A stretch of DNA of 64,000 nt from Mesorhizobium sp. (GTDB lineage Bacteria; Pseudomonadota; Alphaproteobacteria; Rhizobiales; Rhizobiaceae). The stretch is from NCBI GenBank assembly GCA_004020545.1, contig SAQE01000007.1:1-64000 (forward strand), in the 5' to 3' direction. The notes under the pieces were generated by a model. That model was not told the DNA's origin. It was given only the letters and a program-made list of their open reading frames with translations, and made no database searches. Position numbers and translations under genes: made by a program. This document shows, piece after piece, positions 13,002 through 64,000 of the stretch (its first letter is position 1; the number at the start of each line of letters is the position of its first letter).

Positions 13002-13588
13002 AGTTCCGGACCGTTCCGGTCGATCAGGGTACCGGACGGCCACTCGTCCATCGAGCGTCCGATCGGCGAAACCAACACGAGTACGTCTTCCAGGCGCGTG
13101 GGCGGCAGGTCGGGATGCACGTCTGGACGGGTCGACCGTACGCGAACGCCCGACACAATGTTCGCGAGGCCGGCTCTGCAGAATCTTTCGACATGGTTTC
13201 GCAGCGCGTGCCGAACCGTGCCGAAAGCGAATGGAACACCCAACTGATGGAGCACTGGGTACGCCACGCGCATCGAAAAACCGATTCCGAGCCCTTCAAG
13301 ATCCGGACGAACCGCGTACAGGCCCAATTCAGCGACGATCAAGTCGACCTCGCCAACTTTGATGAAGCGCCGCAGCATGCCGATGTGAGCCGCTACCCCA
13401 TGCGCGTCGTAGCCGATTGCGCGGAATTCCGGCCTCGCGCCGGCCCAACTGCGGCCGCCTTCGAATGGCTCCGCGTTGAAGGCGCCAGTCCGTCCATAGG
13501 TCTTTCGAAAAAAGTCGGAGAGTTCGACATGGTCGGCCAGTTGCAACTCATTTTCCCAGCACAACTTCCACTCGACATTCGGGCGCAT
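12998..13588 (-). CDS. nodA: Nod factor N-acyltransferase NodA
   Basis: NodA attaches the fatty acyl chain to the deacetylated oligomer. The 196-residue product, starting [20 protein letters not shown], matches NodA throughout, including [37 protein letters not shown] and the C-terminal [11 protein letters not shown]. Start at 13588 is chosen because it gives the usual N-terminus and has AGGTGAGG upstream; an in-frame ATG at 13636 would add 16 unconserved residues. Expression is expected from the nod box at 13822-13868. Confidence 0.97.
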
Positions 13589-13821
13589 GGAAGACCTCAC
13601 CTTGTAGCTGTCCGGTTGAGATAAATGTCCAAGCATTGGTTAAATAATTGGCGTCGCCCCAACGGGGCGTAACTTGTGGAGACCGCCGAAAGACCAAGCC
13701 GCAATGCAGATGCGACTGACTTTGTACGCCCCGCACACCAGATGATGCTCCTCGGATCCAACGCAACCATCGGAACTACCTATCTTTCCAACTTGAAGCG
13801 CTTCTATGGGACCTGCAGCAA

Positions 13822-13868
13822 AAACGGTAAAATCCTTTGTTTAGATGAAAGGTATCCACGCTTTGGAT
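13822..13868 (-). promoter_or_regulatory. nod box of the nodABC(IJH) operon
   Basis: On the minus strand the box begins ATCCAAAGCGTGGATACC and continues with ATCTAAACAAAGGATTTTACC, a good nod box about 235 bases upstream of nodA. It is the promoter-proximal NodD site for the operon reading left. Confidence 0.9.
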
Positions 13869-13871
13869 AAC

Positions 13872-14415
13872 TGGGCGAATGCGTTCCATATGGCTGGTCA
13901 ATTATCGTCGTCACGCTCGAGGCACTTCTGACGAAGCGCAAAGCTCACGCCCGCGGCACGCGCGGCCGTTGCCGGGCCGCTCGATTATCTCCGTAAGAGC
14001 CCGAGCGGAGCTCAGACACGACGATTGATCAGAATCTGATTCGCGGGTTCAGTATCTTTTTCGTGTATCCAGCTCTGGGCTGTCCTTTGGCGGGAGTTAG
14101 GTTCGCCCAGGTTCTGAGCCTGGGGCGTCGGCCCGTTCGCCGCACAGGCTCCTTCGCACATCGTCGAGGCCGAGAAAGAGGTGGCCACACAGCTCCCCCT
14201 GTACTTTCCACCACCCGACACCAGAGCTCACCCAGGGCGCCGGCCTTGCTCACCTCAACGGATAGCGCACTCGCGCCGCTTCACGATTAAAAGAATTCTA
14301 CAAGCAGATGCCTGTTTGATCGTGAGACGTCCGCTGCCAATTCCCGCATCGCAGAGGCAGCCAATAGCGCTCGCTTCACATAGTGGTCCGGCAAGCAGCT
14401 AGATACGACAGGTGA
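13872..14415 (+). pseudogene. nodD pseudogene with an internal insertion
   Basis: Right of the nodABC nod box, in the position of a divergent nodD, the bases to about 14010 still resemble the nodD 5' end (for example GAGGCACTTCTGACGAAGCGC) but lack an open frame. At about 14318-14415 bases resembling the nodD 3' end reappear (CGTCCGCTGCCAATTCCC, then GTCCGGCAAGCAGCTAGATA). The middle is replaced by about 300 unrelated bases. It encodes nothing functional. Confidence 0.65.
14012..14317. other. Unidentified insertion inside the nodD pseudogene
   Basis: About 300 bases interrupt the nodD relic here. They hold short open frames on both strands but none that I recognise. The composition is GC-rich and unlike the flanking nod relics. 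It could be part of a group II intron or a transposon end, but I see no diagnostic motif. Confidence 0.35.
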
Positions 14416-54945: not shown

Positions 54946-55658
54946 CTAACTTGTAGCAGAGCAATGATTCAGAACACCAACAGCCAATCGCACTAAGCTG
55001 AGGTTATAGAGCAGCCCCTGTCTTGGTCGCTTGCGAACGGTTTTGCGATCCGAGGGCTCAAAGTTGTCGTCACCAACGCCCCAGTCCCACCTTCGTCGCC
55101 AGCTCCTCGCGAAGGTCTCGCATATCGTCCGCGATTGCATCGGCGGTGCCCGTTTCATCCAAAGCCCGATAGAGTTTCTCAGCTTCCTCATAGGCCCAGA
55201 GAACCCGCGCGGAACGCGTCGTTTTCGTCCATCCTGGGTCTCACCTGGGTTGATCGCTAACATTCGACGTTTATAATTGTGCATAGTTTGTCTACAGCGC
55301 TTCGATCGCGCTACCGTATATCAAAATAGAAGCGCCAAGATCACGTCGGAGTCGAGATCACTTTACCTGCATCTCACGCGGATTTATCGAGGCGAGTCGT
55401 GGTCGCTTACAATGTTGTCCACCGCGAAGCGTTCGAAAAGATCGGACCGTTCTGTCTAAATGACGTCAAACGACGCTGAATCGCTATCGTAGAAGCAGTG
55501 TCCCATCACCAATCGCCAATTTTACCTTGCCGTCCGTTTGTCAATACAGTCTACATCTTGGATTTTTGGCCTGTAAACAGAATGCTTGCCTGAATGAAAT
55601 CAGCTAGCATCTGTCTTTCGGTGTGCTATGATAGCTTTGCCAAAAAATGGAGACTCCT
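54946..55658. other. Intergenic region upstream of the peptide operon, with one small relic
   Basis: At about 55085-55260 the minus strand reads RVLWAYEEAEKLYRALDETG and DDMRDLREELATKVGLGRW with a stop, the end of a small helical hypothetical protein. The right part, AT-rich compared with its surroundings, should hold the promoter of the RiPP operon. I see no TGT-N10-ACA site (the nearest, 55540-55556, has 11 bases between) and no convincing sigma-54 motif. Confidence 0.45.
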
Positions 55659-55853
55659 ATGTCGAATCCCAATCCACAGGAGGCTCCCGCCTCTGTCACC
55701 GTCCCGAATCGCGATGTCCGCGCAGCGCTGCTGCGGGGCCGCCTGGCCAATCCGGCGCTGCAGCGTCTGCAGGGGCGCGTCCTGTCCCAGGCGGAGCCCA
55801 GCGATGTCATCACCAGCTATGACAGGATGCACCACCGCCACAGCCGGTCATGA
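55659..55853 (+). CDS. RiPP precursor peptide with Tyr/His/Arg-rich core
   Basis: The 64-residue peptide starts MSNPNPQEAPASVTVPN, continues through a helical leader (RDVRAALLRGRLANPALQRL then QGRVLSQAEPSDVI) and ends in the core TSYDRMHHRHSRS. The ATG at 55659 is chosen because GGAG lies six bases upstream; an ATG four codons earlier is possible. The stop overlaps the start of the radical SAM gene (ATGA). An aromatic and His-rich C-terminus next to an FxsB-type radical SAM enzyme is the pattern of triceptide (three-residue cyclophane) precursors acting on Tyr and His. The three arginines in the core fit the arginase-like neighbour. No cysteine is present. Confidence 0.85.
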   Translation: MSNPNPQEAPASVTVPNRDVRAALLRGRLANPALQRLQGRVLSQAEPSDVITSYDRMHHRHSRS

Positions 55854-58069
55854 CAGTTAGCGAGGCGCCTCCCCGGATTACATCGTTCCTGGTCAAGGTC
55901 GCCTCGCGCTGCAACCTCGATTGCGACTATTGCTACGTTTATCATCACGCCGACCAATCCTGGCGCTCCATGCCAAAATTGCTGTCGGCGGATGATCGTT
56001 TTGCTTTTGTGGAAAGGCTGGCGACGTATTTGTCGGAAGAATCAATCAAGCGCTGTACGGTGATTTTCCACGGCGGGGAGCCTTTGCTGGCTGGCGTCGA
56101 AACGCTTGTGGCCTTTGCCGACCAGATCCGGGCAGCCACGCCCTCATCGGTCGATATCGGGGTGCAGACCAATGGCCTCTTGTTGAGCGAAGCCGCGCTC
56201 ACCGCGTTCGAGGCTGCAGACATCAGCATCTCGCTCAGCCTGGACGGGCCGAAATACGCCAATGACAAACATCGGAACTCGAAAAAGGGCCGTTCCAGCT
56301 TCGAGCGCGTCCAGGAAGCGCTCGGGCGGCTGAAACGGCATTCGAAGATTTTCGCAGGAGTGATTGCCGTCATCGACCCGACCACGCCCGCAGAAGACCT
56401 CCTGGCGTTTTTTGCCGCGCATGATGTGCCCAAGCTCGACTTCCTGCTGCCGGACGCGCACCATTTGCGACCGCCGGCCGGTCGAAGCGAGCAACCTGAT
56501 TTGTACGAAGCCTGGCTTTGTCACGCCTTCGATGTCTGGCTCGACGATTACCCCCAGCTGCCCATACGCACATTCGAGGCTTTGCTCGACGCGGTCGCGG
56601 GGCTGCCCTCGAGTACCGACGCCTTCGGCTTGGGCGATGTCAGCCTTATCGGGATAGAAACCGATGGCAGCTATCATGATTTGGACGTGCTGAAAGTCAC
56701 AAAGGATGGCGCAACGCGAATTGGCGGCGCCGTGACAGACACTGCGATTTCATCGATCGCTTCATCCGATCACCTGGCTGCTCACAGACAATTGCTGAGT
56801 AAGCCTGGTCTCAGTGTCACATGCCAGGAATGCGCGATTGTCGATATTTGCGGTGGCGGTTCGCTCCCACACCGCTATGGCGCCAACGGTTTTGACAACC
56901 CGACCGTCTACTGCGGAGAAATGACCGCGCTGGTCGCGCATATTCGGAGGCGGGTCCAAGGTTTGCTCGACAGCAGTGCTCGACCAGCACAAGCGCTCTC
57001 CGACGCCTTCAGGTTTGACCGATACGAATCGGCAGAGTTCGGCGCGGAGGAGATGGCGCATCTGTGCGCAGCCTCGCGTCAGGCGTTGCAAAGCGAGTTT
57101 CTTGAAGCCGCGCGTTTTCTGCCGCCGGACGAATTTGAAAAGGTGGCAGATCTCGGCGTGACGGACCCGGAACGGCTGGCGGAACTTTGCCAGCAGCCTG
57201 GAGCGGTCGCATGGCAGAGAACCCTGTCCTCCCAGAATTTGGGGCGGGTTGTGCATACGGTGGATGGGCAACCCCTGTCGGCGGACGCGGATTATCTCGG
57301 CGAGATGCTCGATCGGCCTGCAGACAAATTGTCCGCTCTGGCGGTTGCCCGGGAGGACAGTTGGCTACGCAAACCGTTCGGCGACGCCATTTATTTCGAG
57401 ACCGAGGCTGCGGCCGCGCAGGCGCGGCCGGTTGTCGAGGAGGCGCTGCAGATCGTTGAGGCGTGGCGTCCAGCGCTGGCGGCTGAAATCCGCATGGCCT
57501 GCCGCGCCGTTCAATTTGTTCGCGATCCGCTCGCCCATCCCGAAAAAATTGTCTCCTTCAGCGACAATACAGTGCCAGGGGCCCTTTACGTGTCCGTCTG
57601 GCAAGGAGACCGGCTGATCGACCCTTACGATTTGGCCGACTCCTTGATCCACGAGCATCGCCATCAGAAGCTCTATCTTCTGGAACGCATCTCCCCAACA
57701 GTAGAGCCGACCGAAATGCGGGTCGTCTCGCCTTGGCGTGAGGATTTGCGTCCCCCCTCGGGACTCCTGCATGCCGTCTTCGTATTTGTCGAGCTGCGCC
57801 GGTTTTGGGAGTTTGTCCGCCAGGACGGACCGGCGCGCCTGCACAATCGGGCGGTCAACCAGATAAGGGACACTGATGAACATCTCGCTGAAGCGTTCGC
57901 GACGCTTTTGAGCTGCCCGCTAACGCAGACCGGCCGCTCCCTGACCGAGGTTCTGAAGAAAGCCTCCGAGCCGGCGCTTTGGCGGCGTGAACAGGTTGCA
58001 TCTTCCTGTCGACCGCTTGCCGGCCTCGCCATCGGGACGACACGCCGCACTTCGCGACTATTTCTGTGA
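55850..58069 (+). CDS. FxsB-like radical SAM/SPASM maturase fused to an HExxH hydroxylase-type domain
   Basis: The 739-residue protein has two parts. Residues 1-370 are a radical SAM/SPASM peptide maturase: CNLDCDYCYVYHHADQSW with the 4Fe-4S cysteines at 21, 25 and 28, HGGEPLL (74-80), and SPASM cysteines at 325, 328, 334 and 355 (CQECAIVDICGGGSLPHRYG, YCGEM). CYVYHHADQSW is the signature of the FxsB group that makes Cbeta-aryl cyclophane links. Residues about 380-739 carry HEHRH (601-605) in LADSLIHEHRHQKLYLLE, as in HExxH-type putative peptide-modification (2-oxoglutarate beta-hydroxylase type) domains that are fused to or encoded near FxsB proteins. It overlaps the precursor by four bases and the next gene by 83. 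Confidence 0.9.
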   Translation: MTVSEAPPRITSFLVKVASRCNLDCDYCYVYHHADQSWRSMPKLLSADDRFAFVERLATYLSEESIKRCTVIFHGGEPLLAGVETLVAFADQIRAATPSSVDIGVQTNGLLLSEAALTAFEAADISISLSLDGPKYANDKHRNSKKGRSSFERVQEALGRLKRHSKIFAGVIAVIDPTTPAEDLLAFFAAHDVPKLDFLLPDAHHLRPPAGRSEQPDLYEAWLCHAFDVWLDDYPQLPIRTFEALLDAVAGLPSSTDAFGLGDVSLIGIETDGSYHDLDVLKVTKDGATRIGGAVTDTAISSIASSDHLAAHRQLLSKPGLSVTCQECAIVDICGGGSLPHRYGANGFDNPTVYCGEMTALVAHIRRRVQGLLDSSARPAQALSDAFRFDRYESAEFGAEEMAHLCAASRQALQSEFLEAARFLPPDEFEKVADLGVTDPERLAELCQQPGAVAWQRTLSSQNLGRVVHTVDGQPLSADADYLGEMLDRPADKLSALAVAREDSWLRKPFGDAIYFETEAAAAQARPVVEEALQIVEAWRPALAAEIRMACRAVQFVRDPLAHPEKIVSFSDNTVPGALYVSVWQGDRLIDPYDLADSLIHEHRHQKLYLLERISPTVEPTEMRVVSPWREDLRPPSGLLHAVFVFVELRRFWEFVRQDGPARLHNRAVNQIRDTDEHLAEAFATLLSCPLTQTGRSLTEVLKKASEPALWRREQVASSCRPLAGLAIGTTRRTSRLFL

Positions 58070-58991
58070 CAAGGACGCCCGCGCCGTCCGGGAGGATGCC
58101 GGCTGGCGACTCACCCTGGCCTGGCCCGACGGGATCGATCGACATGTCGATCCGGGACTTGATAAGGGTCTGGCCTGGTGGGGTGGAAACATCACCCGGC
58201 CAACCATGGCCACGGCACGCCGCCGCGGCGGCAACGTCTTGAGCGCCCTCTACGACAGCTGGACCCTTCACAGCTGGAGCGAGCGCGTCCAGGAACTGGG
58301 CATCGGTGCTCAGGAGGAGGTGCTTGTCCTCCACGTCGACGATCACCGGGATCTCGCCAGCCCCCGGCTATTTGAGGAAAATGGCCAGTGGGTGGATCCG
58401 ATCAGCGGGTCATCCTGTAGCCTCGACGACCCCGAAAGCATACGCGCGGCCATCGAAAGCGGCGCCATCGGGATGGGCAGTTTCCTGACCCCATTTCTGC
58501 ACGCTTTCCCGCGCACCGAGGTCCGCCACCTTTGCCAACCGCCGAAGATCCGATCGACCCAGGACTTTGCGATCGAACGGTATGAGCAGGCGGACGACCT
58601 GCTGGATCCTGGCCGCAAGCGGCCGGCAGTAAGGCTCGTTGCCTCCTCACGAGGGACAGGACCGGGCAGTTACCGCCTGACCCCCAATCTCGATGATTGG
58701 CTTGAGTTGCTGCCTGAGCGGCGAACCGTCCTCCACATCGATATGGATTTCTTCAACAACCGCTTTGACGGAGACACCGACTGGCAAAGCAGGGGCGATC
58801 TTCTCGATCCACCAATCGAGCGCATCCTGAGGCAAATCGATGGGCTTACGGCGGCGCTTGCTGGATCGACTGTCGGGGCCCAGCTGATCGATATTGTCGT
58901 CGCCTACTCACCGGGATTCTTCCCGGCCGAGTTCTGGGAGGCGGCCTCAGATAGGCTGATCCCGGGCCTGGAGCGCATCTATGAGCGCTAA
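57987..58991 (+). CDS. UPF0489-family protein, putative peptide arginase
   Basis: The protein (334 residues from GTG at 57987) has two arginase-like metal motifs: VLHVDDHRDLASP (His116, Asp118, Asp119, His120, Asp122) and VLHIDMDFFNNRFDGD (His250, Asp252, Asp254). Between them lies IGMGSFLTPFLHAFP, as in UPF0489 proteins. Members of this group act as peptide arginases (OspR in landornamide biosynthesis), turning Arg side chains of ribosomal peptides into ornithine. The adjacent precursor has three core arginines. The start is uncertain because it lies inside the radical SAM gene and has no clear ribosome binding site; the first about 45 residues are not needed for the motifs. Activity on this peptide is an inference. 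Confidence 0.75.
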   Translation: MNRLHLPVDRLPASPSGRHAALRDYFCDKDARAVREDAGWRLTLAWPDGIDRHVDPGLDKGLAWWGGNITRPTMATARRRGGNVLSALYDSWTLHSWSERVQELGIGAQEEVLVLHVDDHRDLASPRLFEENGQWVDPISGSSCSLDDPESIRAAIESGAIGMGSFLTPFLHAFPRTEVRHLCQPPKIRSTQDFAIERYEQADDLLDPGRKRPAVRLVASSRGTGPGSYRLTPNLDDWLELLPERRTVLHIDMDFFNNRFDGDTDWQSRGDLLDPPIERILRQIDGLTAALAGSTVGAQLIDIVVAYSPGFFPAEFWEAASDRLIPGLERIYER

Positions 58992-59448
58992 ATCCGCACC
59001 GAGGCCTGGCCCGCGCCGCAAGCCGAAGCGCCCGACACCCAAGCCCAAGCCCACAAAGGTCAAACCGAGCAGTGCGTTCGTGCAAGCCGATCAGGTGGTG
59101 CTCGTGCCTACCAAGGGGACGGCAAAACGCGGCGGTGGACCCGGTGGCGAAGCCTGGCGCATCGAGGCAGAAGGCAAGCGGGCCGGCGTGGTGTTCATCA
59201 ACCTTATCGACGAGGCGCCGGTCGGCCCGCATGCGTCCATACAAATATATCTCAACACACTGAACCAGGGGCGCCGCATCGGCAGGGTCGCTTACAAAAA
59301 GGCCTGTGAGGCGAGCCGTTACGATGTCATCTATGCCCATATGCGCAAATCCAACGAGGCTTCGCGCCGCGCCGCCGAAGAGGCAGGTTTCAAGGACGAT
59401 ACAAGACCGTCAATGATGCAACTTCTGCTCGTGTGGCGGCGCTCTTGA
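58981..59448 (+). CDS. GNAT acetyltransferase-like protein with Lys/Pro-rich N-terminus
   Basis: The first 35 residues are a basic low-complexity tail (PRPGPRRKPKRPTPKPKP, then TKVKPSSAF). The rest looks like a GNAT fold: IEAEGKRAGVVFINLIDEAP, IQIYLNTLNQGRRIGRVAYK (in the place of the usual acyl-CoA loop with RGRGIG), and YAHMRKSNEASRRAAEEAGF, the standard C-terminal GNAT helix. Length is 155 residues. It overlaps the previous stop by eleven bases and the next start by one. A role in acetylating the modified peptide, for example new ornithine amines, is a guess from context. Confidence 0.7.
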   Translation: MSAKSAPRPGPRRKPKRPTPKPKPTKVKPSSAFVQADQVVLVPTKGTAKRGGGPGGEAWRIEAEGKRAGVVFINLIDEAPVGPHASIQIYLNTLNQGRRIGRVAYKKACEASRYDVIYAHMRKSNEASRRAAEEAGFKDDTRPSMMQLLLVWRRS

Positions 59449-60011
59449 TGAGATTTTGGCCGCAATGGCTGAAGCCATCGGCGATGGTGGATCTGCGCCA
59501 AGTCATGCTTGACCTGAGGCCTGCCTTGCGCACGGAAATTAGCGGTGCGGTGGGCGAGGCGGAGCTTGGTCGCTGGGCGCGCCTGAATGGGCTCTATTAT
59601 TGTCGTGACAGCGATAATTTCATTGTCTTTTCAAAGCGGCCGGCTTTGGCCAGGCGGGTCTTGACCATCGACCAGACTGTTGGCGAGCACAGCGCCTGGC
59701 TGGGGCATTGGCTTGGCTATCCTCCTTGTTGCGTGCGCGCAGCGCGGCGGGTCGGTGAGAAGAACCTGGATTCATGGTCCAGGCAGTTGGCCAGCCGACA
59801 TCACGTCGGAAATTTTGCTTCTATCATGGTCGATGGGTATGCGGCGGGCCGCGCCCTTATCAGCCATATACCTTGCTCGCCTCACTGTTCTGCGTCACTG
59901 CGGCTGGCCTCCCAGCTGGTAAAACCGCATTCTCCTGCACAGCGGCCATCGACCCTGGCCAAATTGCGAGGCTTTCATGCAGACGGCCGTCGTCATTCCC
60001 TGCCTCAATGA
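59448..60011 (+). CDS. DUF483-like cysteine-containing protein
   Basis: The product of about 187 residues starts MRFWPQWLKPSAMVDLRQ. It holds two cysteine clusters, LGHWLGYPPCCVRAARRV (about residues 85-102) and SHIPCSPHCSASLRLA (about 138-153), the pattern of DUF483-type proteins (GYPxCC ... PCSxxC). The clusters could bind metal or an iron-sulfur centre. Function is not known to me; its place in a peptide-modification operon suggests a tailoring or partner role. ATG at 59448 shares one base with the preceding stop (TGATG). The C-terminus overlaps the glycosyltransferase start by 35 bases. Confidence 0.65.
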   Translation: MRFWPQWLKPSAMVDLRQVMLDLRPALRTEISGAVGEAELGRWARLNGLYYCRDSDNFIVFSKRPALARRVLTIDQTVGEHSAWLGHWLGYPPCCVRAARRVGEKNLDSWSRQLASRHHVGNFASIMVDGYAAGRALISHIPCSPHCSASLRLASQLVKPHSPAQRPSTLAKLRGFHADGRRHSLPQ

Positions 60012-61083
60012 AGAAGCGTCCCTGACCGAGACATGCCTTTCGCTAGGCTTCGGCGGCAGTGCGGCATTGCCAGGCAGCGTCCTGGTGCTGGTCGACAACG
60101 GGTCGAGCGACGGCACCCCTGCCGTGATGGAGGCCATCAAGAAGGCCAGCCCAACACCTGTCCTGCTGGGACAGACGCTGGAACGCGGCTATGTCCCCCC
60201 ACGACATCTCGGCGTGCTCATGGCCAAAGCCTTTGCTGCCGAGCAAGGGCTTTCTGATGACGAGCTTTTGATCCTCCAGGCCGATGCCGACACGGTCTAT
60301 GCGAGCGACTATCTCGCCGCCATGCAGGCGGCGGCTCTTTCGGCGCCGCTCGATTTGATTGAAGGGGTTGCCCGCCCGTCGGAGAATTTTTTGAACGACC
60401 ATGCCGGTTACGCCGCTTGCTGCGCAATGGCCGATGAAGCGGTTTCCAGCCTGTTTGTGGCCGAGCAGGACGAGGTCATTGTTGACGACAAGGTGGCGGG
60501 ATTTCGCTTGTCACAGTATTTGAGATGGGGCGGGCATCAGCGGGAGTTCGATCGCCACGGTGACGAGATCCACGCGGAGACGTCGCGGCTCTTCCTGCGG
60601 GCAAAGACCTATGGCGCCGGGCGTACCCGTTCCGCAGGGGCTGTGGCGTATCCGTCGCGCCGCAAGATCGAGGCCGATCCGCTCGCAGCATTCGCAACGG
60701 CCGGCTTTCCGCGGGAACGCCGTTGGCGCGAGCGATGGGCAAAAACCCATCCCGTGTATCCGTCGTTGGCACAGTTTGATTGCACACCATTGGGCGAGGC
60801 GTTTCTTCAGCCCATTTTCATGCGCCAAATGCACGACATCATTCTGTTCGCGTTGATGCCGGCGCAGGTGCAGTTGGCCCTTGGCCAACGGTCGACAATC
60901 TCGCTTGTACAGTCTCCTCTCGCCCCCTTGCTTGAAAAAGTGGACGTCAGCGCCGAAGTGTTGAGGATGGCCCCCGGGCGGATTTTCGAGGCCTTCTTCA
61001 CATTGGCCGAGCTCCAACCCGGTCTCTTCTCGGATTGCATCCGCAACGCCCCGCGCGACCTGTCATCGAATGATACGCGATGA
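59977..61083 (+). CDS. Family 2 glycosyltransferase-like protein
   Basis: The 368-residue protein has the GT-A fold start QTAVVIPCLNEEASLTET, VLVLVDNGSSDGTPAVMEAI (nucleotide-sugar site), and LLILQADADTVYASDYLAAM with the DxD motif. It then has EGVARPSENFLNDHAGYAAC and VVDDKVAG-like IVDDKVAGFRLSQYL. No membrane segments are evident, so it is probably soluble. As last gene of the operon it could glycosylate the peptide, or move a sugar elsewhere; the acceptor is unknown. Start MQTAVVIP at 59977 overlaps the DUF483-like gene. Confidence 0.8.
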   Translation: MQTAVVIPCLNEEASLTETCLSLGFGGSAALPGSVLVLVDNGSSDGTPAVMEAIKKASPTPVLLGQTLERGYVPPRHLGVLMAKAFAAEQGLSDDELLILQADADTVYASDYLAAMQAAALSAPLDLIEGVARPSENFLNDHAGYAACCAMADEAVSSLFVAEQDEVIVDDKVAGFRLSQYLRWGGHQREFDRHGDEIHAETSRLFLRAKTYGAGRTRSAGAVAYPSRRKIEADPLAAFATAGFPRERRWRERWAKTHPVYPSLAQFDCTPLGEAFLQPIFMRQMHDIILFALMPAQVQLALGQRSTISLVQSPLAPLLEKVDVSAEVLRMAPGRIFEAFFTLAELQPGLFSDCIRNAPRDLSSNDTR

Positions 61084-61246: not shown

Positions 61247-62158
61247 TTACCGGTCAGGATATAGGCGGCGCTTGAGCCGCTCAGCCGAGGTCATTTCCGC
61301 TTCTTCGTCAGCCTCGTCGTCATCGCCGGAGGCTGCCTCTCGCGATAGCATGATCAGCGCGAAGCCCTGAGTTTGTAGCAGAACTTGCTCGTAGAGCGGC
61401 GCGGCTTGGCGACCTCTCTCCACATGGAGCCACACGCCGGCGTCGGTTTCGTCGATCTCACTGGGAACGCCCGTCTCATGTTTCCGACGCTGCAGCAGCG
61501 AGTGCGCGGGAACCATGGCCCCAGTCGGGATTGAAAGTTTGGGAAATTTGAGCGCGTCGCGATAGTCGCGCAGCACCTTGCCGTTCTGCGTGACCACAAT
61601 GGCCACAGGTTCCTCGCGGAACTTGACGTAAGCGCGGCCGGCCGCCTCTTTGCTGACGTCGTACTTCTTGGCGATGGCCGACAGTTGGCGGATGTCGGGA
61701 TCCTTACCCACGGCAACATCGACCCGGAATTTTGGGGGTGGCATCAGGAGCTGCGAGGCAAAGCGATTGGCCTCGACCTCCATTTTCAGGCGCCGATCCG
61801 ACTTCCCGCCCTTCAGAGCCCGCATGTCCTGGAGCCTGCAAAGAAAACGTCCTTCGGCCGACGGCACATGCGACGGCATCAGGAAGTGCCCAAGCTCGTG
61901 GGCTATGGTGAAGCGCCGCCGCTCCCTAGGGCTCGCTTCGTTGAACAGAATTGTTCCGTTGAACTTGTCGGCCGAGGTCAGAAGGCCGCCTTCGTAGCCG
62001 TCAGTGGTCAGGGGGACGATCTCGAGAATATCGAGGCGCAGGCACAATTCCTCAATGGGCACCGGAATCGCCAGCTGCGGCTCGTGCTTCAGGATTTCCA
62101 GGACGAGGCGTTCGGGGCTGGCTGCATCGGCCAGATCGATGCGGCTGATGTTCATCAC
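61247..62158 (-). CDS. ImmA/IrrE-type zinc metallopeptidase
   Basis: The 303-residue protein has the zinc motif FTIAHELGHFLMPSH (HELGH at residues 87-91) followed by ANRFASQLLMP with the third ligand region, as in ImmA/IrrE family proteins that cleave a partner repressor. It is the second gene of a coupled pair: its start overlaps the stop of the XRE regulator by four bases. The acidic tail (EAASGDDDEADEEAEM) is notable. Such pairs regulate mobile elements, stress genes or act as toxin-antitoxin-like modules. Confidence 0.88.
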   Translation of the reverse strand: MMNISRIDLADAASPERLVLEILKHEPQLAIPVPIEELCLRLDILEIVPLTTDGYEGGLLTSADKFNGTILFNEASPRERRRFTIAHELGHFLMPSHVPSAEGRFLCRLQDMRALKGGKSDRRLKMEVEANRFASQLLMPPPKFRVDVAVGKDPDIRQLSAIAKKYDVSKEAAGRAYVKFREEPVAIVVTQNGKVLRDYRDALKFPKLSIPTGAMVPAHSLLQRRKHETGVPSEIDETDAGVWLHVERGRQAAPLYEQVLLQTQGFALIMLSREAASGDDDEADEEAEMTSAERLKRRLYPDR

Positions 62159-62481
62159 TTAGTGCGGCTGGCCTTGAGACGCTCGGCCAGCAAGGCGATG
62201 GTTTCCCGGTCGGCCGGCGAAAGCTCACTGAGATTGCGGTAGAGCGCCACGAGTGCGGGTTCCTCCTGACCCGCGGCCGGATTTTCGCCAACCAGATCCG
62301 CGACGCCGATCTTGTAATAGTCAGCAAGGCCTTTGAGCAGGACAAGGGATGGGTTCTTGCTGGCGCCGCGTTCAAGGTCCCAGATATGCGCCTTGGAGGC
62401 CCCGACTGCGTCGGCGACCTCCTGCAGCGATTTCCCGCTGCGCACACGCAGCTGCTTCAGCTTGACGGCCAGTTCTACCAT
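62155..62481 (-). CDS. XRE-family transcriptional regulator
   Basis: The 108-residue protein has a lambda-repressor-type helix-turn-helix (LKQLRVRSGKSLQEVADAVG, ASKAHIWDLERGASKNPSLV) and a short tail rich in acidic residues (LSELSPADRETIALLAERLK). It is upstream of and coupled to the ImmA-type peptidase, its likely partner. The divergent intergenic region (62482-62636) faces the ubiquitin-like operon, which it may control. Confidence 0.88.
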   Translation of the reverse strand: MVELAVKLKQLRVRSGKSLQEVADAVGASKAHIWDLERGASKNPSLVLLKGLADYYKIGVADLVGENPAAGQEEPALVALYRNLSELSPADRETIALLAERLKASRTK

Positions 62482-62636
62482 TCAGTCCTTCTCCGGAATC
62501 ATTTTTGGCGCGCACGCTTTCGCGGCACGCCGTCTGATCAGGCACTACAACATCATACCATGGGCATTGACGCAACCCGCGCCGTAAGATATAGTTGTAC
62601 GCACTTGTAGCAAACGAACCTTAACAGAGATTTTTA

Positions 62637-62856
62637 TGGGCAAAAATCGGCATGTCGTACCTCGCGACGGTCAGTGGGCGGTGCTCGGCGCCGGCAACAC
62701 TGCGCCACTTCCCTTCATCCGACCCAGGCCGATGCGATTGCCTCGGCAAGGGATATCGCCATCAACCAGCAAAGCGAGGTGGTGATCCATAGCCCGAACG
62801 GACAAATCCGTGACTCGAACTCTTACGGCAACGATCCCTTCCCGCCGCGCGGTTAG
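62637..62856 (+). pseudogene. DUF2188 protein, one frameshift
   Basis: The start MGKNRHVVPRDGQWAVLGAG (62637) is the usual DUF2188 beginning. After AACAC (about 62700) the frame must change to continue TSLHPTQADAIASARDIAIN, QQSEVVIHSPNGQIRDSNSY and GNDPFPPRG to the stop. A single base loss explains it. Proteins of this kind accompany many mobile defence or stress loci. It may be a sequencing error. Confidence 0.7.
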
Positions 62857-62882
62857 CGGCTTCAACAAAAGGATACTCCAAA

Positions 62883-63155
62883 ATGCAGACCCAGGAGAAC
62901 GAAAAGGACAAGGACAAGACCGTCACCATTATCGTTGACGGCAGCCCCTACGAGGTCCCGAAGAAGGACACTATCAGCTACGCCGAAGTGGTGACGCTGG
63001 CCTACCCCGATTATCCGCAGCACCCCGAGATCACCTACTCGGTGACCTACACGCGCGGCGATGGCCACAAGCCGGAAGGCATCCTGGCTCCGGGTGGCAG
63101 CGTGAAGGTCAAGGAAGGGATGGTCTTCAGTGTTAATCGAACTGGCCAGTCATAA
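62883..63155 (+). CDS. Ubiquitin-like (multiubiquitin-type) protein
   Basis: The 90-residue protein has a basic/acidic lead (MQTQENEKDKDKTVTIIVDG) and a beta-grasp-like pattern: VTIIVDGSPYEVPKKDTISY, AEVVTLAYP, ITYSVTYTRGDGHKPEGILA and GGSVKVKEGMVFSVNRTGQS. This fits the multiubiquitin domain encoded before ThiF-type E1 genes in bacterial ubiquitin-like conjugation loci. It has one domain and no Gly-Gly end (it ends TGQS), so conjugation, if any, would need a different chemistry. It overlaps the E1-like gene by 26 bases. Confidence 0.7.
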   Translation: MQTQENEKDKDKTVTIIVDGSPYEVPKKDTISYAEVVTLAYPDYPQHPEITYSVTYTRGDGHKPEGILAPGGSVKVKEGMVFSVNRTGQS

Positions 63156-64000
63156 CGATGATATCCGTCGCCTGCTCGAAAAGGGCTATGCTCTGAGGGT
63201 GGACACCTTGCACCTCGTGGTCCGGGACATTCCTTACCTCGACCACGAGGGCGTGCTTCAGACCGGGTCCATTGTCGCCAAACTCGTCCCTGTCGACGAG
63301 CATCACTTCGTTCAGGATGACCACCAGGTCTATTTTGCCGGATCGGCGCCATACGGCCTCGAAGGTCAACCCGTCCCCAACCTTGCCGGCGGTGCAACAA
63401 CCATTCCGTTGTCTCACGACGACGTCGTCGTCCAGAGGTCATTCTCCAACAAGCCGGCGACCGGGTTTGCGAATTTCTTCGCCAAAATCGAACACTATGT
63501 CGCCCTGATTTCCGGACCGGCGATAGAGCGGTTTCCGCAGGCCACCCCCCTCACCTTTCGCGTCGATCCCGACATCGTGCCGGACTCCGTGTTCAAGGTT
63601 CATGACTCCCTGACCAGCCGCGCCGAGATCGCCGATCTCGCCAACGTCTTTGTCGACGACGTCGTCGCCATCATCGGGCTTGGTGGCACGGGCTCCTATG
63701 TTCTGGATTTCATGGTCAAGACCAGGGTCAAGGAGATCCGCGGCTTTGACGGTGACCTGTTTTACCCGCACAACGCGTTCCGGTCGCCTGGAGCCCTGGA
63801 TCCCGAGGACTGGCAGAAGTCGAAAGCCTCGGTCGCCGAAAGGCGCTACGCGAACTTTCGGCACGGACTGTCGATGCGGCAGGTCTACATCGATGCTTCT
63901 TCCACGGCCGAGCTTGAAGGCGTGACGTTTGCTTTCGTTTGCGTGGACAAGGGCTCGGCCCGCGCCGCCATCTTCGAGCTTTTGACGGGGATGGGAATAC
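63130..64000 (+). CDS. ThiF/E1-like adenylyltransferase, cut by the window end
   Basis: From GTG at 63130 an open frame of at least 290 residues runs off the window. The N-terminal part (LIELASHNDDIRRLLEKGYA, IPYLDHEGVLQTGSIVAKLV) resembles the domain (DUF6791-type) found before bacterial E1 domains. Around residues 176-206 comes the Rossmann nucleotide motif DDVVAIIGLGGTGSYVLDFM, then IRGFDGDLFYPHNAFRSPGA, as in ThiF/E1 enzymes that adenylate ubiquitin-like proteins. The catalytic cysteine would lie beyond the edge. It is coupled to the ubiquitin-like gene. Confidence 0.8.
   Translation, partial: MLIELASHNDDIRRLLEKGYALRVDTLHLVVRDIPYLDHEGVLQTGSIVAKLVPVDEHHFVQDDHQVYFAGSAPYGLEGQPVPNLAGGATTIPLSHDDVVVQRSFSNKPATGFANFFAKIEHYVALISGPAIERFPQATPLTFRVDPDIVPDSVFKVHDSLTSRAEIADLANVFVDDVVAIIGLGGTGSYVLDFMVKTRVKEIRGFDGDLFYPHNAFRSPGALDPEDWQKSKASVAERRYANFRHGLSMRQVYIDASSTAELEGVTFAFVCVDKGSARAAIFELLTGMGI

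Follow-up and report, generated by a model that had tools for sequence, protein, structure and literature searches.

What does the compact six-gene operon at positions 55659–61083 of a Mesorhizobium sp. contig make, and what is its product for? The stretch analysed here (the window) comprises the first 64,000 nucleotides of contig SAQE01000007.1 (assembly GCA_004020545.1), and its open reading frames (ORFs) bear out what a sequence-only reading had described: six plus-strand genes, every one overlapping its successor, headed by a small precursor. The operon is a real, conserved member of a known family of ribosomally synthesised and post-translationally modified peptides (RiPPs), with an extended modular set of tailoring genes. 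On balance, we suggest that its product is a decorated, YhhA-type triple-cyclophane peptide, probably kept inside the cell and probably helping to ward off phages or other mobile DNA. Three points look new, namely the organisation of the cassette, a rule that links a core serine to a DUF483-like gene, and a frequent location in defence islands.

The precursor and its maturase belong to a curated family. The 64-aa precursor YhhA (55659..55853, plus strand, as are all genes of the operon) matches NCBIfam model NF041705, 'YhhA family cyclophane-containing RiPP', at 61.2 bits (cut-off 36); GGAG stands immediately 5' of its start at 55659, with an in-frame ATG upstream at 55647. Its core, TSYDRMHHRHSRS, is coded by 55812–55850. 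The next gene, yhhB (55850..58069), encodes a 739-aa protein that matches NF041707 (YhhB) at 487 bits against a cut-off of 445. Its radical S-adenosylmethionine (rSAM)/SPASM cyclophane synthase domain (~55877–56959) also matches TIGR04269 (FxsB), and its C-terminal part matches TIGR04267, the alpha-ketoglutarate (aKG)-HExxH peptide beta-hydroxylase model, at 136 bits against a cut-off of 40 (domain at 57434–57949, motif HEHRH at residues 601–605). CNLDCDYC and HEHRH are invariant in all four rows of alignment A1, and YhhB is the sole TIGR04267 match in this genome. The closest solved relatives are 9gm3 (ChlB) for the rSAM part (E 9e-141) and 8s5f (ChlH) for the HExxH part (E 2e-77). Since the core contains Y-D-R, H-H-R and H-S-R, all three of its Arg residues would be ring partners, a placement that follows the YhhB literature, in which Tyr C3 or His C2 is joined to the Arg beta carbon (PMC11002830, in the parts consulted).

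These matches to curated models, together with a gene order that recurs elsewhere, make the operon more than a chance arrangement, and they support the earlier claim of a cyclophane RiPP operon with a beta-hydroxylase, an arginase-fold protein, a GNAT and a GT2 protein. That claim needs some amendment. The rSAM and HExxH parts are both present but are fused in one protein, the fifth gene had been left without a name although it belongs to the system, and the remark that no product with this whole set had been described has to be set beside a precursor and maturase that already form the curated YhhA/YhhB family with published crosslinks.

Relatives were found by scanning an 84,980-species genome collection, a search that favours close relatives because it relied on a pair of short family peptide patterns; of 104 stretches that matched, 87 encode relatives, 80 of which were retained. 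The proteobacterial set used below has 35 loci (the window, L002–L031, L033, L040, L084 and L085) and includes plasmid loci; L032 (same record as L005), L001, L086 and L112 (the window's own locus) and L087 and L137 (taken as L008's genome) were omitted as repeats, and L139, added later, is part of no count. The sequence-only reading had set beforehand, as a test, whether the genes stay together. They do for four: the precursor, yhhB (interrupted in L005 by an IS21 element) and the arginase-like gene (in two frames in L007 and truncated in L017, where the contig ends) occur in 35/35 loci, and the GNAT gene in 34/35, the exception being L017, again cut. The other two are more loosely attached, with the GT2 gene in 29/35 (upstream on the other strand in L012) and the DUF483-like gene in 13/35; the contig-cut L017 is among the loci without it in both cases (6 and 22, respectively). 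The expected conserved core is evident across alpha-, beta- and gamma-proteobacteria. Among 34 precursors (L017 left out) it reads TSYDRMHHRH[S/N]RS, with 11 of 13 positions identical in all, one position divided between Asn (21 precursors) and Ser (13), and a single K for R, in L040 only.

This cassette is carried by rhizobia and also by Pseudomonas, Aeromonas, Halomonas, Variovorax and Sphingomonas, on plasmids or islands, and its occurrence is patchy and rare: the precursor was matched in 3/394 genomes of the window's family (one of the three below the cut-off), and the maturase in 3/385 of its class and 1/398 of its phylum, its own genome included each time. Farther afield, the Clostridial loci L038 and L039 hold short operons of a precursor, an rSAM protein lacking the HExxH domain, an arginase-like and a DUF483-like gene, in which neither GNAT nor GT2 was found; their cores are CSYSRMHNRHNRS and SSYSRMHNRHNRS. 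Another stretch, L136 (G739:C28:8001-26000), carries two YhhB-like genes (378 and 725 aa) and a divergent precursor ending in FDRTHHRHNR.

The third gene (57987..58991), for which we coin the name yhhC (gene C below), overlaps yhhB by 83 bases in the window and by 4 bases in the nearest relative, L006. It had been assigned to the UPF0489 arginases, an assignment that its sequence score fails to reach (13.3 bits, Pfam cut-off 27; NF052474 30.1 bits, far under the cut-off of 350) but that its fold upholds: the predicted fold is that of a ureohydrolase (arginase), with OspR as best match, and makes gene C a remote homologue of the peptide arginases. Mean identity is 52% (29 rows from proteobacterial loci). 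Residues D118, H120, D122, D252 and D254 are invariant in 32 rows, so that the DxHxD and DxD motifs are kept, and the second metal motif reads HIDMD, retaining the two Asp of DIDLD. The EEH(N/H)EAF motif was not seen in these 32 rows; its place is probably held, judging by the alignment, by the nearly invariant D90 (replaced by His in L035 and by Glu in L038 and L039).

Further downstream lie the genes for a GNAT-fold acyltransferase (58981..59448; PF00583, 23.9 bits, cut-off 20.7) and, after gene 5, a GT2-fold glycosyltransferase (59977..61083; PF00535, 26.8 bits, cut-off 23.3), whose translation holds LQADADT with its DxD motif. GT2 was not found in L010, L022, L031 and L040, the four loci placed in Gammaproteobacteria. 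In L010, L022 and L040 a guanidinoacetate methyltransferase-like protein follows GNAT in its stead (PDB match for the L022 protein, E 2.9e-5), and in L031, read by eye, such a protein is fused to GNAT (13115–14305). L023 has GT2 pieces and a methyltransferase relative on the other strand; in L026 neither was seen at the locus. Two more fusions join YhhB to the arginase-like protein in one 1046-aa rSAM-HExxH-arginase frame (R. leguminosarum Vaf10, L139:5992–9129) and gene C to GNAT (L004); taken with that of L031, they argue that the enzymes act on one substrate.

A substrate residue can be proposed for the fifth gene (59433..60011). Its product resembles DUF483 weakly (PF04467, 15.6 bits, under the gathering cut-off of 25), and H86, C99, C100, H145, C148 and C152 are invariant in 16 rows. 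Every locus whose core position -3 is Ser carries the DUF483-like gene (13/13), and none of those with Asn does (0/21); L017, whose contig ends before the gene 5 slot, has Ser and stands outside this count, and L139 fits the rule with an Asn core and no such gene. On the YhhB tree (33 loci, L005 and L017 left out), gene and Ser change seven times each, together and with no exception; well-supported branches force at least five changes, and all five independent pairs agree. The smaller gene C tree (also without L007) shows six joint changes, three of them on supported branches. This rule looks new, and the DUF483-like protein most likely modifies a ring-held Ser, as the covariation suggests. 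Outside the Proteobacteria, L035, L038 and L039 (Clostridial/Chloroflexi) carry the gene with Asn at the matching place and Ser in the first ring (Y-S-R); the cores of L036 and L037 also read Y-S-R, and their contigs end soon past yhhB. Part of the gene 5 protein also matches (E < 0.001) large Actinobacterial proteins from three FxsB loci (L041, L064, L074), in which an HExxH domain precedes a DUF483-like domain; their genes adjoin those of FxsB-type rSAM enzymes.

The same covariation could arise if cassettes were simply exchanged in blocks and the protein did not act on the Ser, an explanation we regard as improbable. It draws on the small number of switches (five independent ones on supported branches, p 0.06, and three on the gene C tree) and on the Asn that the Clostridial and Chloroflexi loci with gene 5 carry at the matching place. 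Those three loci, however, have a first-ring Ser instead, and YhhB, gene C and GNAT occupy the 3.6 kb that separates the precursor from the DUF483-like gene; as the switches are seen on YhhB's own tree, block exchange would require both ends to move and the middle to stay.

The setting of the operons bears on their role. A PADLOC scan (E 1e-10) covered 271 flank proteins from 20 loci, namely those of up to 1200 aa among the 15 nearest per locus, and these match 110 and 226 models in two scans. By comparison, 254 proteins encoded on the same 20 contigs at a distance of at least ~60 kb match 13 and 12, mostly general models such as mad3 and mad8, and 123 proteins flanking 20 PF13471 genes of the same class (19/20 regions), genes which we take to be mostly lasso-peptide B genes, match 5; these model counts overstate the difference because a single protein can hit many models, some of which occur in both scans (7 same-contig and 13 lasso-control proteins were dropped). 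Among the matches listed are Septu, IetAS, Shedu, DRT, type I restriction and candidate systems, and a prokaryotic Argonaute was found among flank proteins scanned singly. The single scans, made on flank proteins only (1–3 per locus, some picked after earlier results), gave a hit at 1e-10 in 14/20 loci; those of L006, L013, L015 and L022 are partial, and one of the 14, RtcR in L033, is presumably not a defence protein. Annotated plasmid loci show Piwi/SMEK in L002, a DEAD/DEAH helicase, ThiF and Mov34 in L003, Fic and a toxin-antitoxin pair in L004, and a DncV-like cyclase, ThiF and Mov34 in L005. The operons are associated with known defence genes above both controls, and this defence-island setting looks new. 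It hints at an anti-phage function. In two Rhizobium plasmids a His-Xaa-Ser rSAM peptide system also adjoins the yhh operon (L004:13968–17094, hxsBCA; L005:11666–13386, hxsC and hxsA annotated).

Among 547 flank ORFs of the 35 loci no family is shared by more than four loci, and near them no gene of ≥80 aa for an exporter, a protease or immunity was found to recur. The cassette therefore looks self-contained, with no fixed partner of these three kinds, and because none travels with it the peptide is probably retained intracellularly.

The window's own right-hand neighbours fit the pattern. A capP-like M78/IrrE peptidase of the kind that regulates the cyclic-oligonucleotide-based anti-phage signalling system (CBASS; 61247..62158, minus strand; PADLOC capP E 6.4e-55, PF06114) and a capH-like helix-turn-helix regulator (62155..62481, minus; capH E 5.2e-20) abut the operon, followed by a multi-ubiquitin protein (62883..63155, plus; PF14452, 64.2 bits, cut-off 24.5) and a DUF6791-ThiF (E1-like) protein that continues beyond the window (63130..64000, plus; PF20590 132 bits, PF00899 38 bits). 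Past the window come a TIR_2 protein and then a CBASS pair at contig 72178–73463, a two-transmembrane effector and a SMODS cyclase (PADLOC E 8e-113), the cyclase 11.6 kb from the operon. The cluster formed by 61247–64000 and L109 (contig 60001–80000) also holds DUF2130, DUF3800, TIR_2 and DUF4238 proteins.

As we picture the route, the rSAM part of YhhB would close three rings, Tyr-Arg in Y-D-R and His-Arg in both H-H-R and H-S-R, and its HExxH part would next beta-hydroxylate the middle residues of the rings (Asp, His). Both reactions have been shown for relatives (PMC11002830, PMC12636437, in the parts consulted), and the fused relative ChlH hydroxylates Asp and His and requires a preinstalled cyclophane (PMC12636437). 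The arginase-fold protein may then strip urea off at least one ring Arg, leaving a ring-borne ornithine, whose new amine the GNAT would probably acylate; after this the DUF483-like protein would modify the Ser of the third ring and the GT2 protein add a sugar, probably by O-glycosylation of a hydroxyl. The finished peptide, probably retained in the cell, would probably act against phages or other mobile DNA. A bolder proposal, tentative and possible rather than probable, is that yhh operons form a proteobacterial peptide immune system in which a cell-retained, ornithine-bearing triple-cyclophane blocks phage or plasmid replication, with DUF483-like proteins as a new class of RiPP enzymes acting on a Ser within a cyclophane.

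Several observations weigh against this account. The His of EEHxE is replaced in gene C, where we read Asp, and its arginase activity can consequently not be taken for granted. Gene C was not found in the YhhA-like loci L034, L065, L080 and L083, whose cores keep Arg, nor in L036, L037 and L075 (Arg-keeping cores, contig ends near), and the L040 core carries Lys for one ring Arg. A sign test restricted to supported branches reaches p 0.0625, five pairs being too few for 0.05, and L034 is a counterexample to the Ser rule, with a ring Ser (Y-S-R) and no DUF483-like gene within 9.7 kb. As to role, 6/20 loci gave no PADLOC hit among the one or two flank proteins scanned singly, and a defence island can carry passenger genes.

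Other roles have to be weighed against the same evidence. The product might be a secreted, bacteriocin-like antibacterial triceptide, a competition trait of mobile islands exported and cleaved by housekeeping proteins. Its patchy occurrence (3/394 family and 3/385 class genomes) would suit this, as would the fact that ornithine-bearing ring peptides such as the biphenomycins are antibiotics (PMC12707348, in the parts consulted); we nevertheless consider it unlikely, given that no exporter, protease or immunity gene of ≥80 aa recurs near the 35 loci, that the neighbours are often defence genes, and that the core is nearly invariant across three proteobacterial classes. Diversifying bacteriocins usually lack such an invariant core. 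That invariance, with three His and no export genes, would also fit a conserved internal partner, and thus an intracellular role of a housekeeping kind, as a cofactor, metal carrier or signal, brought to islands solely by horizontal transfer; this seems to us a little less probable still, as the operon is rare, patchy and plasmid- or island-borne and strongly enriched near defence genes relative to two controls. Least of all do we credit the nodulation or symbiosis role proposed in the sequence-only reading, which is very improbable: nod-like genes do lie on the same 169-kb contig (at 9–16 kb in the window, by eye), but ~40 kb to the left of the operon, homologues occur in many non-symbionts, and the right-hand neighbours are capP/capH and multi-ubiquitin/ThiF genes rather than nod genes.

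If the defence reading is right, an orphan curated RiPP family gains a likely tailoring route and a biological role, chemical phage defence gains a second RiPP class next to the lanthipeptides, and the DUF483-like family of unknown function becomes an enzyme that can be tested on a specified substrate residue. Conversion of a beta-carbon-crosslinked Arg to ornithine would be unusual chemistry.

How, then, does the operon compare with known systems? The YhhA/YhhB triceptides (Sugiyama 2022, via PMC11002830) share the precursor and the rSAM maturase, both curated cut-offs being exceeded here, and their reported Tyr-Arg and His-Arg links fit the window's Y-D-R, H-H-R and H-S-R; the parts of that source consulted do not mention the downstream arginase-like, GNAT, DUF483-like and GT2 genes. 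ChlB/ChlH (Morishita 2024, via PMC12636437) have the same two domains, rSAM and aKG-HExxH, fused in one protein, and no additional tailoring genes are described in the consulted parts, unlike in the window. Gene C shares the arginase fold, DxHxD and DxD with the peptide arginases OspR, FlmR, OhkR and PbsE/BipC (pfam12640) but lacks EEHxE and scores 30 bits against the 350 of NF052474, and its substrate Arg would be beta-carbon-crosslinked, which the literature consulted, in part, does not describe for peptide arginases. The nearest chemical precedent, by analogy, is biphenomycin (bip/bpm/pbs), which likewise brings rSAM C-C crosslinking, a peptide arginase and an aKG-HExxH hydroxylase to bear on one RiPP. 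It differs in its own B12-rSAM biaryl link, multinuclear non-haem iron-dependent oxidase (MNIO), TldD protease and major facilitator superfamily transporter, and in being an antibiotic, and GNAT and GT2 were not seen in its gene lists in the parts consulted (PMC12707348, PMC12257519); its loci whose precursor lacks Arg also lack the arginase, the same logic as our Ser rule. For the role, the nearest precedent, again by analogy, is that of the anti-phage lanthipeptides (Shomar 2024, via PMC12360287). No report linking cyclophane RiPPs to phage defence was found in a partial literature search, with subscription journals thinly covered. The lanthipeptides differ in their lanthionine chemistry and their hosts (Actinomycetota); as far as the consulted parts of that source go, they too are RiPP clusters of defence islands (8.8% of their clusters lie near defence systems), and their activity is so far known only within cells (PMC12360287).

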